Shown: positions 51,376 to 56,443 of the stretch, one piece after another | How positions within the stretch are numbered: the first letter of the stretch is position 1 | Layout of the letters: each line of letters begins with the position of its first letter | Source: a virus | Virus record (IMG/VR): IMGVR_UViG_3300013108_000466 | Coordinates: 1-56,833 of that record | Reading direction: 5' to 3' (one strand) | DNA: 56,833 nucleotides | Notes under the pieces: generated by a model | Seen by the model: only the letters and a program-made list of their open reading frames with translations | Database searches by the model: none | What the model was told of the DNA's origin: nothing | Translations under genes and position numbers: made by a program

Positions 51376-52182
51376 ATGAAAGTAAGTCACGAAGTACCTC
51401 GCTGTTTATTAACAGCATCCCCTGAATTTAATGACTATGACTACTGTCTGCCTCATTTATTAGATCAGGATGAAGAATATAAACAATATTTTTATGATGC
51501 TAAAAAATCAGGACGATATATCATTATGGATAATTCGTTACATGAATTAGGAGAAGCATATAAATGGGATAGATTACACCATTGGATTAAAGAATTAGAA
51601 CCAGATGAATTTATAGTACCTGATGTTTGGATGAATTATGCCCAAACACATGCTCAAGCAAAGTATTGGATACAACATAGTTATCCAGAAAATACTACAC
51701 CAGTAGCTGTAGTACAAGGAGAAGATAAAGGTAAAGCATTTCAGTGTTATAGAGCTTTAAAAGAATTAGGTTATAAAAAATTAGCAATATCTTATGGTGC
51801 TGATTGGTATAATGATTTACATCCTCACCCAAATAAGGATTTAGGTAAAGCATTAGGTAGAATAAATTTTGTAAGTAGTTTATATTCTGGAGGATTAATT
51901 GATAAGTATGACAGAATACATTTACTTGGTTGTTGTGTACCACAAGAATTTGGATGGTATAGAGGATACAAGGAAATAGAATCAATTGATACTTCAAACC
52001 CAGTAATGGCTGCTTTAGAAGGAACTTTATATTGGGAAGATGGTTTATCATCAAAACCCAAAGCAAATATGAATGATCATTTTGATATTGATTTTAAAGA
52101 AATTACTTATGAGGATGTTATTCATAATACAACATTATTTAGAGAAATTAATGGAATACCAAAAATAGAAAATTATGGCTAA
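51376..52182 (+). CDS. dpdA: DpdA-like DNA guanine transglycosylase (TGT fold)
   Basis: 268 residues. TGT/DpdA-type features in order: Y-I-I-M-D-N-S-L-H-E-L-G (about 48-59), E-F-I-V-P-D-V-W (about 77-84), V-A-V-V-Q-G (about 109-114), H-L-L-G-C (about 190-194) and I-D-T-S-N-P-V (about 214-220), where TGTs keep their catalytic Asp residues and substrate pocket. The tRNA-TGT zinc motif is absent, as in phage DpdA proteins. It would exchange guanine in phage DNA for a 7-deazaguanine base made by the FolE, QueD, QueE and QueC homologues in this window. The subfamily cannot be set from sequence reading alone. Confidence 0.75.
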   Translation: MKVSHEVPRCLLTASPEFNDYDYCLPHLLDQDEEYKQYFYDAKKSGRYIIMDNSLHELGEAYKWDRLHHWIKELEPDEFIVPDVWMNYAQTHAQAKYWIQHSYPENTTPVAVVQGEDKGKAFQCYRALKELGYKKLAISYGADWYNDLHPHPNKDLGKALGRINFVSSLYSGGLIDKYDRIHLLGCCVPQEFGWYRGYKEIESIDTSNPVMAALEGTLYWEDGLSSKPKANMNDHFDIDFKEITYEDVIHNTTLFREINGIPKIENYG

Positions 52183-52372
52183 ATTAACAAGAACAGTAAA
52201 TTATTGCAACTTCAGATGGGAAGAATATATCTTAACAGAAGAAGAATTAGCAAAATGGAAAACAGGTGATGAAGACCTTCAACAAGAAATTATAGATGAT
52301 GCAGATTGGGACCTGGTAAGAGATAAACCGATTGATGATTACGGTGACGTAGAATTTAAAGAAGAAGATTAA
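52175..52372 (+). CDS. Small acidic hypothetical protein in the modification cluster
   Basis: 65 residues; overlaps the dpdA stop by 8 nt. Glu/Asp-rich C-terminus (DYGDVEFKEED); N-terminus NYCNFRWEEYILTEEELAKW. Strong acidity suggests a protein partner or DNA mimic, but nothing identifies it. Confidence 0.6.
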   Translation: MAKLTRTVNYCNFRWEEYILTEEELAKWKTGDEDLQQEIIDDADWDLVRDKPIDDYGDVEFKEED

Positions 52373-52373
52373 T

Positions 52374-52571
52374 ATGGTAGAAGTAATAAAACATGCATTA
52401 GGATTTTGTGGAGAACATTGGCATCCAAATATTTGGACCCTTCTTACAGGAGGATTTGGATTAGCAGCAATCTATTCGTATACTATATCCTATATAAAAT
52501 GTAGATATAATAAATTTAAAAAAGCGTTTGCCTATACGCTTAATAATACCTGGCAAAAATTTAAATTTTAA
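52374..52571 (+). CDS. Small membrane protein in the modification cluster
   Basis: 65 residues; starts 1 nt after the previous stop. One hydrophobic helix (about 21-41, LLTGGFGLAAIYSYTISYI) then a basic aromatic tail ending WQKFKF. Function unknown. Confidence 0.6.
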   Translation: MVEVIKHALGFCGEHWHPNIWTLLTGGFGLAAIYSYTISYIKCRYNKFKKAFAYTLNNTWQKFKF

Positions 52572-52576
52572 TTAAA

Positions 52577-53371
52577 ATGGCAAAACATTGTGTAGTTTCG
52601 TTAAGTGGTGGAATGGATAGCAGCACCCTATTGTTAAGAGCTATCAGCGAATATGATACTGTAACAGGTATCTCTTTTGATTACGGTCAAAAGCATAGAG
52701 TAGAGCTTCAAAAAGCTCAATCTTTAATTGATTACCTTGCTAGTAAAGGTCATAAAGTAAATTATAGACAAATTAAACTAGATGGTTTAGTAGACTTACT
52801 AGATTCAGCTTTAGTTCAAGGAGGAGATGATGTACCAGAAGGACATTATGAGCAAGACAATATGAAAGAAACAGTTGTTCCTAATAGGAATAAAATGTTT
52901 GCTTCTATTACTCAAGCAGTAGCTTTATCTATTGCTAATAGAACACAAGAACCAACAGATATCGCTTTAGGTATTCATGCTGGTGATCATGCAGTTTACC
53001 CTGACTGTAGACAAGAATTTAGAGATGCAGATGATGCAGCTTTTAGAATCGGTAATTGGGAAGCCGATAGAGTAGGTTACTTTACACCTTATTTAGATAC
53101 AGATAAATTAGGAATTTTACAAGATGGAGAAAAATTGGTTGAAACGTTGGGTATTGACTTTAATGAAGTCTATAAAAGAACGAATACATCATACAAACCC
53201 TATCCTAGTGGAAATTCTGATTATAAGTCTGCTTCTAGTGTTGAGAGGATTGAGGCATTTATTGCTTTGGGTAGAAAAGATCCTGTCACTTATGAGGATG
53301 AAAGTGGAGTGGTTCCTTACGAAGTAGCTGAAGCTCACGTAAAACAAGTATTAGCTGAATATTCAGCTTAA
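52577..53371 (+). CDS. queC: QueC-like ATP-pyrophosphatase without the zinc-cysteine site
   Basis: 264 residues. PP-loop S-G-G-M-D-S-S (about 9-15), D-Y-G-Q-K-H (about 34-39), V-P-N-R-N-K (about 103-108) and G-I-H-A-G-D-H match QueC (7-cyano-7-deazaguanine synthase). The C-terminal zinc site of standard QueC, T-x-S-C-Y ... C-G-x-C-x-x-C-x-x-R, aligns with T-N-T-S205-Y ... D215-Y-K-S218-A-S-S221-V-E-R, so all four Cys are replaced. The overall spacing is kept, so the fold is probably intact. It may make preQ0 without zinc, or stop at the amide, or act on another carboxylate. A tRNA-Ala follows 7 nt later. Confidence 0.8.
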   Translation: MAKHCVVSLSGGMDSSTLLLRAISEYDTVTGISFDYGQKHRVELQKAQSLIDYLASKGHKVNYRQIKLDGLVDLLDSALVQGGDDVPEGHYEQDNMKETVVPNRNKMFASITQAVALSIANRTQEPTDIALGIHAGDHAVYPDCRQEFRDADDAAFRIGNWEADRVGYFTPYLDTDKLGILQDGEKLVETLGIDFNEVYKRTNTSYKPYPSGNSDYKSASSVERIEAFIALGRKDPVTYEDESGVVPYEVAEAHVKQVLAEYSA

Positions 53372-53378
53372 TACAGGA

Positions 53379-53452
53379 GGGGGATTAGCTCAGCTGGCTA
53401 GAGCACTTGATTTGCATTCAAGAGGTCATCGGTTCGACTCCGATATCCTCCA
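53379..53452 (+). tRNA. tRNA-Ala (anticodon TGC)
   Basis: 74 nt. Acceptor GGGGGAT/ATCCTCC includes the G3-U70 pair that specifies alanine. The anticodon loop is TTTGCAT with stem CTTGA/TCAAG; T-arm ATCGG-TTCGACT-CCGAT; discriminator A. CCA is not fully encoded. All canonical arms are present. Confidence 0.95.
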
Positions 53453-53473
53453 CAAATTTTTAAACTAGAAATT

Positions 53474-53953
53474 ATGAGTAAATTAAAAGAGAAGTTTGGT
53501 AAGTACTTTCAATTCAAAAATACCATTAATGGAACAGATTATTTCCTAAGAGGATTAGCAATGTTACTATTTATTATTCCAATTGGAATCCTTATTGGAG
53601 TTGGAATAGGAATAATGGCAGCAGGTGGAAATGGGCTTTTAGCTGGTATTCTTGTTTTATTAGGAGCGTTATTAGTTATACCAATGATGTGGTTTTCACT
53701 AGCAACAACTTATAAAAGAATCAATTCATTCTTTCCTAAGAAAGCAACATTACTAACAGTACTAACATTTTTATTCTCGTTTGTTCTTGAAGGAGTTAAT
53801 CCTAATAGTACAAATGGTTTAGATTTTGAAAATCCATCACCAATGGTTAGTCCTTTAGAAAGTCCTATCTACATAGTACTTTTATTGGTATCATTAGTAT
53901 GGAGTTTCTATTTACTATTTGGTAATTCAAAAGTTAAGAAACATATAGGATAG
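53474..53953 (+). CDS. Polytopic membrane protein (DUF805-like)
   Basis: 159 residues with about four hydrophobic segments (about 29-50, 53-75, 93-107, 129-147). 'FQFKNTINGTDYFLRGLAMLL' and 'MMWFSLATTYKRINSFFP' resemble DUF805-family inner-membrane proteins. It sits between two tRNA genes. Function unknown. Confidence 0.65.
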   Translation: MSKLKEKFGKYFQFKNTINGTDYFLRGLAMLLFIIPIGILIGVGIGIMAAGGNGLLAGILVLLGALLVIPMMWFSLATTYKRINSFFPKKATLLTVLTFLFSFVLEGVNPNSTNGLDFENPSPMVSPLESPIYIVLLLVSLVWSFYLLFGNSKVKKHIG

Positions 53954-53959
53954 TACAAA

Positions 53960-54032
53960 TGGCTCGTGGTGTAACTGGCAACACGTCTGGTTTTGGTCCA
54001 GAAGAGTCTAGGTTCGATCCCTAGCGAGCCAA
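53960..54032 (+). tRNA. tRNA-Gln (anticodon TTG)
   Basis: 73 nt. Acceptor TGGCTCG/CGAGCCA with T1-A72, D-arm GTGT/ACAC, anticodon loop TTTTGGT on stem TCTGG/CCAGA, T-arm CTAGG-TTCGATC-CCTAG, discriminator A. Canonical cloverleaf. Confidence 0.95.
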
Positions 54033-54043
54033 CGTAAAAAATA

Positions 54044-54185
54044 TGCCCAGTAGAGCAGTAGGTAGCTCGCTTTGGCTTAACTCGACGCGAAGTTGAACTT
54101 TAACGTGAAGGGTAACTTGTAATACAATCGATCGTGAAAAGCAAAGAGGTCAAAGAGGTCACAGGTTCGAGTCCTGTCTGGGTCA
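54044..54185 (+). tRNA. tRNA-like gene with a ~69-nt insertion in the anticodon arm
   Basis: Acceptor halves TGCCCAG (54044-54050) and CTGGGTC (54178-54184), D-arm GAGC-AGTAGGTA-GCTC with GG and A11-U24, and T-arm ACAGG-TTCGAGT-CCTGT are all intact. Pair 1-72 is T-C (mismatch), which together with A11-U24 recalls initiator tRNA. The anticodon stem CTTTG (54070-54074) can pair with either of two tandem copies of CAAAGAGGT (54142-54159), and 76 nt separate the stem halves instead of 7. No conventional anticodon can be read. It may be an intron-containing tRNA of unknown type, a regulatory tRNA-like RNA or a decayed gene. Confidence 0.6.
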
Positions 54186-54190
54186 ACAAA

Positions 54191-54276
54191 GTAGTAGTTC
54201 CTGAAAGTCTGTAAAAAGACGAATGAGAGAATAAAAATAGTCCTATGACTTCCCTTTCAGGTCTCTCCGCTACTAC
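54191..54276 (+). ncRNA. Structured RNA with nested stems and a pseudoknot
   Basis: P1 GTAGTAG (54191-54197) with CTACTAC (54270-54276), 7 bp. P2 CCTGAAAG (54200-54207) with CTTTCAGG (54254-54261), 8 bp. Inside P2: P3 TCT/AGA (54208-54210 with 54217-54219) and P4 AGTC/GACT (54239-54242 with 54247-54250). GAGAGA in the P2 loop (54225-54230) can pair with TCTCTC (54262-54267), exactly the strand between P2 and P1, forming a 6-bp pseudoknot. It lies 5 nt after the tRNA-like gene and 16 nt before an ATG. I cannot assign it to a known class. Confidence 0.65.
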
Positions 54277-54292
54277 CTATTTAAATATTATT

Positions 54293-54496
54293 ATGAGAAA
54301 ATTTTTAGAAAATAAATACACAAAGTTAATATTTAGTATAGCAATTATGGGCTCTGCTATTCCTTCTATTTACAAAGACTTTACTTATGGTCATAGTGGT
54401 GAATGGACACATTATGGAATGATGTTAGTTGGAGTTTTATATTTTATTGAATCATTACTTTGGACATTAGACTTATGGCAACAAAAAAACAATTAA
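54293..54496 (+). CDS. Small two-TM membrane protein
   Basis: 67 residues from ATG 54293; the upstream in-frame ATG 54245 would lie inside the structured RNA. Two hydrophobic segments (about 11-27 and 42-60). It directly follows the pseudoknotted RNA and overlaps the CorA-like gene by 22 nt. Function unknown; it could be controlled by that RNA. Confidence 0.6.
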   Translation: MRKFLENKYTKLIFSIAIMGSAIPSIYKDFTYGHSGEWTHYGMMLVGVLYFIESLLWTLDLWQQKNN

Positions 54497-54858
54497 AAAG
54501 AGCATTAGAATATTACGAAGTTGTAATTTTTGAAAATAAAGATTATGATACTGATGATTTCTATAATTTAAAAAGAGAATTATTAAGAGGAGAACATTTA
54601 GATTTAATTCAAATATTTGAAGTGCTAGAAGACATTATTGAAAAAAGACATAATGATCTAATGAATCGTAGATTAAATTTATTAACAATATGGTCTACAA
54701 TATTCTTACCACTATCTTTTTATACTGGACTTTGGGGAATGAATTTTGATGATGTTCCTTTAATATCAGATGATCATGGATTTTGGATATTTGCAGTTTT
54801 AACTGTAGGTACAATAGTAGGAATGTGGTATTATTTTAAAAAGAATAAATGGATTTAG
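54475..54858 (+). CDS. CorA-like mini magnesium-channel protein
   Basis: 127 residues from ATG 54475. The long helix (about 30-62) leads into TM1, followed by Y-T-G-L-W-G-M-N-F, the G-M-N selectivity motif of CorA Mg2+ channels, a short acidic loop and TM2 (about 97-118) with a Lys-rich end. The large N-terminal cytoplasmic sensor domain of CorA (over 200 residues) is almost absent. It may be an unregulated or modified ion channel in the inner membrane. Confidence 0.7.
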   Translation: MATKKQLKRALEYYEVVIFENKDYDTDDFYNLKRELLRGEHLDLIQIFEVLEDIIEKRHNDLMNRRLNLLTIWSTIFLPLSFYTGLWGMNFDDVPLISDDHGFWIFAVLTVGTIVGMWYYFKKNKWI

Positions 54859-54887
54859 TTGGATTAGCTAATTCCATTTCGTATATT
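54859..54887 (+). promoter_or_regulatory. Bacteroidota-type promoter (TTGGA-N18-CG-TATATT)
   Basis: TTG 54859-54861, TATATT 54882-54887, spacing 20 nt. An imperfect inverted repeat (TGGATTAG/CTAATTCCA) covers the -33 end and spacer. It drives the thioredoxin-queD-queE-folE operon. Confidence 0.75.
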
Positions 54888-54909
54888 AACGTTAAACAAT
54901 AAAAATCAA

Positions 54910-55158
54910 ATGGCAAAAATTATTTATTTTACAGCTCCGTGGTGTGGTCCTTGTAAAGCATTAGGCCCAGTAATGGAAAAATTAAGTCATTCAATTCCTA
55001 TTCATAAAGTGAATATTGATAATGACACAAATAAGGCAACTCATTATTCTGTTAGAAGTGTTCCTACTCTAATTAAAGTAGATGAACAAAATAATGAAAT
55101 AAAGAGAACAGTAGGTAATCAATCAGAACAAGATATATTAAATTGGTATAATGGGTAA
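54910..55158 (+). CDS. Thioredoxin
   Basis: 82 residues, a short thioredoxin. Active site A-P-W11-C12-G-P-C15 and cis-Pro motif R-S-V-P-T-L are intact. It could reduce the class I ribonucleotide reductase encoded at 42484-45186 or keep biosynthetic enzymes reduced. It overlaps the QueD-like gene by 8 nt. Confidence 0.88.
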   Translation: MAKIIYFTAPWCGPCKALGPVMEKLSHSIPIHKVNIDNDTNKATHYSVRSVPTLIKVDEQNNEIKRTVGNQSEQDILNWYNG

Positions 55159-55615
55159 ATTTCAATCAAGTAAAGTATTTGACGGATTTAGTACAGTGTT
55201 CCGTCAGTGGAAAGCAACGACAACACACTGTAGATTTGTACATGGTTATGGAATATCTTTTAAAGTATATTTTGAAGGAGAATTAGATGAAAGAAATTGG
55301 GTGTGGGATTTTGGTGGTATGAAAAGAGCAAAAACTAAAATCGATGGTAAATCACCTAAAGAATGGATGGATTATATGTTTGACCACACTTTAGTAGTGG
55401 CAGAAGATGATCCTGAATTATTAGCATTTCAACAAATGGATAAAGCGGGTGTAGCTCAAGTAAGAGTAATTCCAGCTACTGGCGCAGAGAAATTTGCTGA
55501 ATATATTTATAACAAGCTTAACGAGTTCGTTGATACTGAAACTGAAGGTAGAGTTAGAGTTACCAAAGTTAAGTTCATGGAACATGGTAAAAACGCAGCT
55601 TGTTACGTAGAATAA
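55151..55615 (+). CDS. queD: QueD-like 6-carboxytetrahydropterin synthase family protein
   Basis: 154 residues. Family features: H26-C27-R-F-V-H31-G-Y33 (catalytic Cys and zinc region), V-W-D-F-G-G-M-K (about 66-73, the DF...K motif), F-D-H-T-L-V-V (about 93-99) and A-E-K-F-A-E-Y-I (Glu). The usual H-G-H zinc pair is H-G-Y here, and the first His ligand is not at its standard spacing (only H26, adjacent to the Cys). It likely acts after FolE in the 7-deazaguanine pathway; altered chemistry is possible. Confidence 0.75.
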   Translation: MGKFQSSKVFDGFSTVFRQWKATTTHCRFVHGYGISFKVYFEGELDERNWVWDFGGMKRAKTKIDGKSPKEWMDYMFDHTLVVAEDDPELLAFQQMDKAGVAQVRVIPATGAEKFAEYIYNKLNEFVDTETEGRVRVTKVKFMEHGKNAACYVE

Positions 55616-55657
55616 GTTATAACAGTGAATGAAAAACCACTTTAAAAAATTAACAAT

Positions 55658-56443
55658 ATGCACAAACAATTGAAACGTATCGAGGATTACGATAAAAACC
55701 TCCCCATTGTAGAAATTTACACTGCAGTACAATCAGAAGGCTCAAGAGCAGGATACCCAACAGTAGTTATTAGAACAACAGGATGCACCCACAGATGCTA
55801 TTTTGGCGAAGGTGGATGGTGTGACAGTTGGTATACAAGTATCCACCCAGAAAAAGGTCATTTTAACTTTAAAGACATTATTGCCATGTATGAGAAAAAC
55901 CCTCATATAAAGGAAATGATGTTGACTGGAGGTTCACCTACTATGCATGCTGCTTTAGTAAATGAATTAACTCACTTCGCACATGAAAACGATATATTCA
56001 TTACTATTGAAACTGAAGGATCACATTTCCTTCCTACTGATTATCCTATTAATCTCCTGTCAATTTCTCCTAAGTTTAGTAATAGTGTCCCCGTTGTTGG
56101 TACTCTTACTCCTCAAGGAAAAGTTACAGACGAAAAAATGGTAAAACAACATAATAAGTTAAGACTTAATTATGATGCAATTAAACAATCAATAGCTTAT
56201 CATTCTGACTTTCATATTAAACCAGTATGGGATGGTAAAGATCAAAAAGCATTAGCTGAAATTATGGATTGTCTAGCTCAATTAGAAGTTAAACCTGAAA
56301 AAGTATGGTTTATGCCAGCAGGTGATTCTAGAGAAGCGTTATTTAAATCTTATCCTGTATTATTTGATTGGGTAAGAGATAATGGTTATAGAATGACTTG
56401 GAGACCACATATTATTGCTTTTGAAGATAAACGAGAAGTATAG
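55658..56443 (+). CDS. queE: QueE-like radical SAM 7-carboxy-7-deazaguanine synthase
   Basis: 261 residues. The N-terminal substrate strand I-Y-T-A-V-Q-S-E-G matches QueE. The Fe-S Cys motif is C43-x3-C47-x7-C55 rather than Cx3Cx2C, a five-residue expansion; variant spacings are known in QueE. The SAM motif is T-G-G-S-P (usually T-G-G-E-P). The C-terminal 'KPEKVWFMPAG' and 'WRPHIIAF' fit QueE. It makes 7-carboxy-7-deazaguanine for the QueC-like step. The stop overlaps a GTG-started small ORF by 1 nt. Confidence 0.85.
   Translation: MHKQLKRIEDYDKNLPIVEIYTAVQSEGSRAGYPTVVIRTTGCTHRCYFGEGGWCDSWYTSIHPEKGHFNFKDIIAMYEKNPHIKEMMLTGGSPTMHAALVNELTHFAHENDIFITIETEGSHFLPTDYPINLLSISPKFSNSVPVVGTLTPQGKVTDEKMVKQHNKLRLNYDAIKQSIAYHSDFHIKPVWDGKDQKALAEIMDCLAQLEVKPEKVWFMPAGDSREALFKSYPVLFDWVRDNGYRMTWRPHIIAFEDKREV

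Follow-up and report, generated by a model that had tools for sequence, protein, structure and literature searches.

A conserved tRNA-like element with a rebuilt anticodon arm in marine phages

A tRNA-like element in which the anticodon arm has been rebuilt is encoded at positions 54044-54185 of the window, the whole 56,833-nt stretch of virus DNA that was analysed (IMGVR_UViG_3300013108_000466) and to which all element coordinates refer. Its architecture is shared by 34 distinct sequences from phage contigs, the window's included, together with one sequence whose insert is divergent (L272), and this architecture is under selection. The element is carried by marine phages related to the window phage, whose contig is myovirus-like, with PHROGs matches to a terminase, portal, major head protein and tail sheath. 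We consider its best explanation, with a probability of roughly 0.6, to be a phage non-coding RNA family that arose from an initiator tRNA, had its anticodon arm replaced and retains the insert in the mature RNA. The element probably represents a new regulatory RNA of phages and not a working tRNA; we infer that the arm is retained, that the RNA acts in trans and to which class of target it may be directed. An earlier note on this DNA had raised either a new type of insertion or a regulatory tRNA-like RNA, of which the latter fits best and is conserved, whereas a removable insert is disfavoured.

The tRNA finder used (ARAGORN) either misses the element or labels it a tRNA-Leu with an intron. 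Neither plain ARAGORN nor the Rfam gathering cut-off calls it, tRNA-Ala and tRNA-Gln being the only calls in the window; with introns allowed, the exact interval is returned as 'tRNA-Leu(taa)' with a 67-nt intron. The acceptor, D and T arms, described in the earlier note as well formed, are all found, with six of seven acceptor pairs (1:72 being U.C), 4/4 D-stem and 5/5 T-stem pairs, and CTTTG/CAAAG pairs at 5/5. The sequence also agrees with the description of an anticodon loop replaced by 76 nt, which lie between positions 31 and 39, where the loop would be expected, and the call with introns allowed has the same coordinates. Folding of the single window element is uninformative (z -0.39), so that the case for the element rests on comparison. 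The element and its surroundings comprise:

52577-53371, + strand: queC, which usually lies upstream in one of two genomic contexts (Pfam QueC, 1.2e-37)
53379-53453: tRNA-Ala (plain ARAGORN, Rfam gathering cut-off)
53960-54033, + strand: ordinary tRNA-Gln(TTG), a neighbour (plain ARAGORN, Rfam)
54044-54185, + strand: whole element, a tRNA-like RNA with a rebuilt anticodon arm (ARAGORN -i; covariation; 163.9 bits with model R1, among whose sequences is the window sequence itself)
54044-54050, + strand: acceptor stem, 5' strand TGCCCAG, pairing with 54178-54184; 1:72 mismatch, 2:71 G.U
54053-54068, + strand: D arm GAGC-AGTAGGTA-GCTC (stem 100% paired with covariation; loop almost invariant)
54070-54076, + strand: extended anticodon stem, 5' strand CTTTG + N32 + C33, partner 54149-54155 (covariation)
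54077-54080, + strand: UUAA bulge, nearly invariant (alignment A1)
54081-54083, + strand: insert helix, 5' strand CTC, partner GAG at 54146-54148 (100% paired)
54091-54119, + strand: internal hairpin, optional, found in long inserts (where present, pairing is 78.9% in the outer and 100% in the inner helix)
54129-54142, + strand: conserved core CGATCGTGAAAAGC, terminal part of the arm (in 30/30 type A, at most one base changed)
54146-54155, + strand: insert helix and extended anticodon stem, 3' strand GAG-G-T-CAAAG (alignment, covariation)
54156-54160, + strand: variable loop AGGTC (alignment)
54161-54177, + strand: T arm ACAGG-TTCGAGT-CCTGT (loop invariant; stem 100% paired with covariation)
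54178-54185, + strand: acceptor stem, 3' strand, and A73; CCA not encoded (sequence, alignment)
54191-54276, + strand: downstream hairpin, possible terminator or processing stem (fold z -2.98)
5575, 36305, 38073, 48828, 50534, 54878 and 56462, + strand: exact TTCGTATATT motif

The downstream hairpin is shared by the window and L002 only, a different strong hairpin occupying this place in L121 and L135. A small protein encoded at 54478-54858 has a Pfam match (1.6e-20) to CorA Mg2+ transporters that is confined to their C-terminal membrane part. A cluster at 51376-56443 contains the preQ0 genes queC and PTPS/queD-like (Pfam), an adjoining queE-like gene that groups with its relatives, and a 268-aa protein of uncertain family; its gene content suggests 7-deazaguanine chemistry in DNA or tRNA.

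An interrupted-arm tRNA scan with generic criteria (D, T and anticodon stems complete, no more than one of the five inner acceptor pairs missing, insert no shorter than 15 nt) covered 2.9 Mb of loci, many of them fetched by family patterns and several only via the neighbouring queC, and yielded 34 distinct sequences, every one from the element family. The same scan of 6.1 Mb of Markov-1 random sequence gave two matches, which indicates that the element is more than a product of chance. When IMG/VR was searched by queC and membrane-protein neighbours, with the element unused, contigs were recovered in which queC is followed by the same architecture. Further members were added by pattern scans, L273 and L275 through a pattern not requiring the core, which is present in both although it had not been demanded; L286 matched a pattern and was rejected as a family member. 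Thirty of the 34 sequences are of type A and four of type B, with L272 constituting a third type (C) in a different tRNA body. Type A inserts measure 45-48 nt, in which case the internal hairpin is missing, or 74-78 nt, and carry the core CGATCGTGAAAAGC, either exact or with a single-base change; type B inserts are 71 nt long and have another core. The larger member contigs searched each hold a single copy.

In the collections searched, the family is restricted to phages. No homologue was found by blastn among 50,697 records of cultured phage genomes; the family model found no match in Flavobacterium phage immuto, the closest cultured queC phage, and only ordinary tRNAs in Cellulophaga phi4:1. 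When 84,980 host species genomes were scanned with the core pattern, 115 stretches matched, with no members among the matches listed, and the family model, run with a stricter filter and without a positive control, had no hit at E 1e-14 in 148 Flavobacteriales genomes. The sole Rfam match of the family is tRNA, and three members (L132, L270 and L272) pass the cut-off of that model, so parts of the family may already carry a tRNA annotation. No description of such an RNA was found in the open-access literature searched, whose coverage excluded a 2017 survey of 224 candidate RNAs.

Covariation was assessed on a 30-sequence type A alignment (A1) with a 36-pair structure, against shuffled and slid controls. 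Paired cells amounted to 94.9%, compared with 79.6 +/- 0.8 in shuffled and 34-54% in slid alignments; two-sided changes were seen in 154 cells against 47 +/- 6 after shuffling, and the covariation score was 0.431 against 0.164 for the control. Compensatory changes occur in 23 of the 36 pairs, some of them in a helix internal to the insert. Both-sided changes are found at six of seven pairs of the acceptor stem, and the D stems vary between GAGC/GCTC, CCTC/GAGG and GTTC/GAAC while remaining 100% paired. The check proposed in the earlier note, a covariance search in related phages, has thus revealed strong conservation, the lack of which would have pointed to decay.

The rebuilt arm begins with an anticodon stem extended to seven pairs (27-33), which is 100% paired in the 30 sequences with both-sided changes at five of the seven. 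Positions 32 and 38 pair in 34/34 (as GU, AU or CG) and position 33 pairs with the last G of the insert, again in 34/34, which argues that the extended stem is the functional form. The stem is separated from the insert helix by a UUAA bulge on the 5' strand, 4 nt long in 33/34; its sequence departs from UUAA as UAAA (L115, L147) and as UUAUAA (L132). The insert helix is likewise 100% paired, appearing as CTC/GAG, CCT/AGG, CCC/GGG, CTT/AAG, CCG/CGG and CCA/TGG: the first pair is C-G, and the next two covary freely with at least four and at least seven changes on the tree, alignment columns 42:108 showing all four Watson-Crick pairs with at least seven changes. Beyond this helix lie a 3x3 internal loop, a near-constant GC/GC step and the conserved core (GC...CGAUCGUGAAAAGC); on the pairing of this terminal region single-sequence MFE folds disagree, and the hairpin of long inserts displays some covariation. 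Comparison changes the pairing first proposed for the window. An extended stem formed by CTTTGGCTT and AAGCAAAG gives way to CTTTGGC/GTCAAAG, the UUAA bulge and then CTC/GAG. CTTTG had been thought able to pair with either of two CAAAG copies; the second (54151-54155) is its partner by comparison, whereas the first is CTAAG, CAAAA or absent elsewhere in the family, and the tandem copies are therefore incidental.

Kinship with initiator tRNAs is supported by the family-model search, in which ordinary initiator tRNAs score highest after the members themselves (L086, 65.9 bits; L062, 58.3 bits). In L086 a normal fMet(CAT) tRNA lies a few hundred nt past queC, in the slot that the element takes in others. 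The element and tRNA-fMet have in common this similar position after queC, the 8-nt D loop AGTAGGTA, the T-arm sequence and, in part of the family, a mismatched 1:72; they differ in that the element has a variable D stem and no anticodon loop, CAU or three G-C pairs, its anticodon stems being CTTTG/CAAAG, CTCTA/TAGAG and others. The acceptor end is weak throughout: 1:72 and 2:71 are never both Watson-Crick (34/34), at least one of them is mismatched in all but one of the 34, and 1:72 is mismatched in about two thirds, the remainder having a 2:71 mismatch or wobble. In L272 the acceptor end is fully paired. Of the initiator-like features proposed for the window, a weak acceptor end is conserved, whereas the A11-U24 pair varies with the D stem. 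Each of the acceptor, D and T arms is present in the family, with the D loop containing GG and the T loop TTCRA; a 7-nt anticodon loop with the U33 of a decoding tRNA is lacking, C33 being present in 33/34. Among side observations on tRNA-like genes, a large tRNA array (25 genes in L062 by ARAGORN) includes odd ones (L062 18459-18730; L082 19850-20080): one has a GTTTAAC stretch and receives no plain tRNA call, and the next along has a long hairpin in its 5' half and a GGTTTAAC stretch.

The family is modular and, in some phages, has a promoter-like motif of its own. At 17 of the 34 loci queC lies within about 1.5 kb upstream, the remaining copies standing in unrelated gene contexts. In seven loci away from queC (L097, L115, L132, L135, L147 and L275, with L121 having one base changed), the motif TTCGTATATT ends ~10 nt before position 1; it is probably a phage promoter, and in the window its exact form occurs seven times, always on the coding strand. 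L097 shares its locus and tRNA body with L115, L132, L147 and L275, but its insert is of type B in place of type A and almost the same as that of L063, which lies in the queC context; it follows that bodies and inserts reassort as modules. In the type B inserts (L063, L097, L270 and L271) the loop palindrome ATGCAT changes to GTGCAC as a unit, a hint of loop-loop dimerisation. A kissing-loop dimer via CGATCG (type A) or ATGCAT/GTGCAC (type B) is suggested, but some 6-nt palindrome is present in 60% of shuffled inserts, and this evidence was accordingly left unused.

The modular exchange of inserts between bodies is also what an intron might display, and one possible, if unlikely, reading is that the element is a pre-tRNA with a mini-intron of about 38-71 nt at the canonical 37/38 site, either self-splicing or excised by an endonuclease and ligase of phage or host origin. 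It would constitute a phage-specific class, dependent on machinery not known in bacteria. The 4-nt bulge (33/34) suits this reading, as cuts after A37 and before N38 would leave an exact 7-nt loop, N-C-U-U-A-A-N, with the anticodon UUA; ARAGORN also models an intron, but in another register (UAA). The resulting loop would, however, be unusual. It would contain C33 in place of the near-universal U33, its predicted anticodon would be UUA in most members and UAA in two, and in L132 it would comprise 9 nt; moreover, UUA would read UAA, the stop codon of 55 of the 66 window ORFs. A search of IMG/VR with one exact pattern gave no intronless version, and RtcB was not found in 16 records; in a search for T4 Rnl1 the control itself was silent. 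The earlier judgement that the insert is too short for a group I intron stands, inserts being at most 78 nt with no Rfam match to a group I or II intron up to E 10. Together with the pairing of 32:38, these observations lead us to favour the extended arm as the functional form, and the insert is probably retained. Should it be spliced after all, it would represent a new kind of tRNA intron for bacteria and phages.

Under the preferred reading of a retained arm, a phage initiator tRNA would have been the ancestor, its acceptor, D and T arms and elbow being kept and its anticodon loop exchanged for a 7-bp stem (27-33), the UUAA bulge, a helix of at least 3 bp and a terminal region built around any of several conserved cores. 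With the insert remaining in the mature RNA, the tRNA body could be processed at its 5' and 3' ends by host tRNA enzymes, stabilise the RNA and dock to tRNA-binding factors, while the rebuilt arm would be the effector site, its bulged helix and terminal core shown to a protein or an RNA. The client would likely be host translation or RNA-processing machinery, and the family points to a route by which phages may address RNA decay or translation in the host. The searches gave neither a partner protein nor a target, and the core is no more complementary to flavobacterial rRNA than shuffled sequences are.

Tailed phages deploy tRNA genes against anticodon nucleases, as in the T4 and T5 systems, and the element might similarly be a tRNA-body decoy against a host anticodon nuclease or other tRNA-targeting defence, its altered arm permitting binding without productive cleavage. 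Arms-race selection could also yield the observed swapping of inserts. This explanation is nevertheless improbable, as no defence system or nuclease is linked to the element, the bulge and core are conserved beyond arms-race expectation and, L272 excepted, the tRNA bodies are all initiator-like. A role in cis within the queC/preQ0 operon, as a riboswitch-like element or a processing stem, would account for queC upstream at 17/34 loci, but is very unlikely given that other copies stand among unrelated genes, in some cases behind a promoter-like motif of their own, and that Rfam gives no preQ1 riboswitch match. A decayed or chimeric tRNA gene, to which the mismatched acceptor end and the failure of plain ARAGORN and the Rfam gathering cut-off to call the window element might point, is refuted by the strong conservation, with compensatory changes in every arm across 30 sequences and a single copy kept in larger contigs.

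The design of the element resembles that of tmRNA and YrlA, and it belongs to neither. Like tmRNA, it has a tRNA-like body and a lengthened anticodon stem that bears another domain; it differs in its complete D arm, its length of less than 150 nt and the lack of both G3.U70 and a conserved tag reading frame, and ARAGORN -m makes no tmRNA call for it. A tmRNA identity was rejected on these grounds. YrlA, a bacterial Y RNA, has D, T and acceptor-like arms and another stem replacing the anticodon arm (PMC8394870), an exchange that the element shares; the element, however, ends at its acceptor and not in the other stem. A YrlA identity was rejected as there is no Rfam Y RNA match and no TROVE/Rsr gene in 16 records, which may be fragments and whose hosts could supply TROVE. 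Group I introns also interrupt the anticodon arm in bacterial tRNA genes, but the insert here has no group I core, and a group I or II identity was rejected because the search for a catalytic core gave no Rfam match up to E 10; the phage introns known to a 2014 review were in protein genes only (PMC3984707). With the BHB introns of archaeal and eukaryotic tRNAs the element shares the canonical 37/38 site and a bulged helix, but its 4-nt bulge on the 5' strand faces a continuous 3' strand and is followed by the 3x3 internal loop; the two 3-nt bulges on opposite strands flanking 4 bp are absent from the covariation-derived structure, and a BHB identity was likewise rejected. Natural RNAs in which a tRNA chassis carries a replaced anticodon arm are few, namely tmRNA and YrlA, and a phage family derived from initiator tRNA would add a further design.
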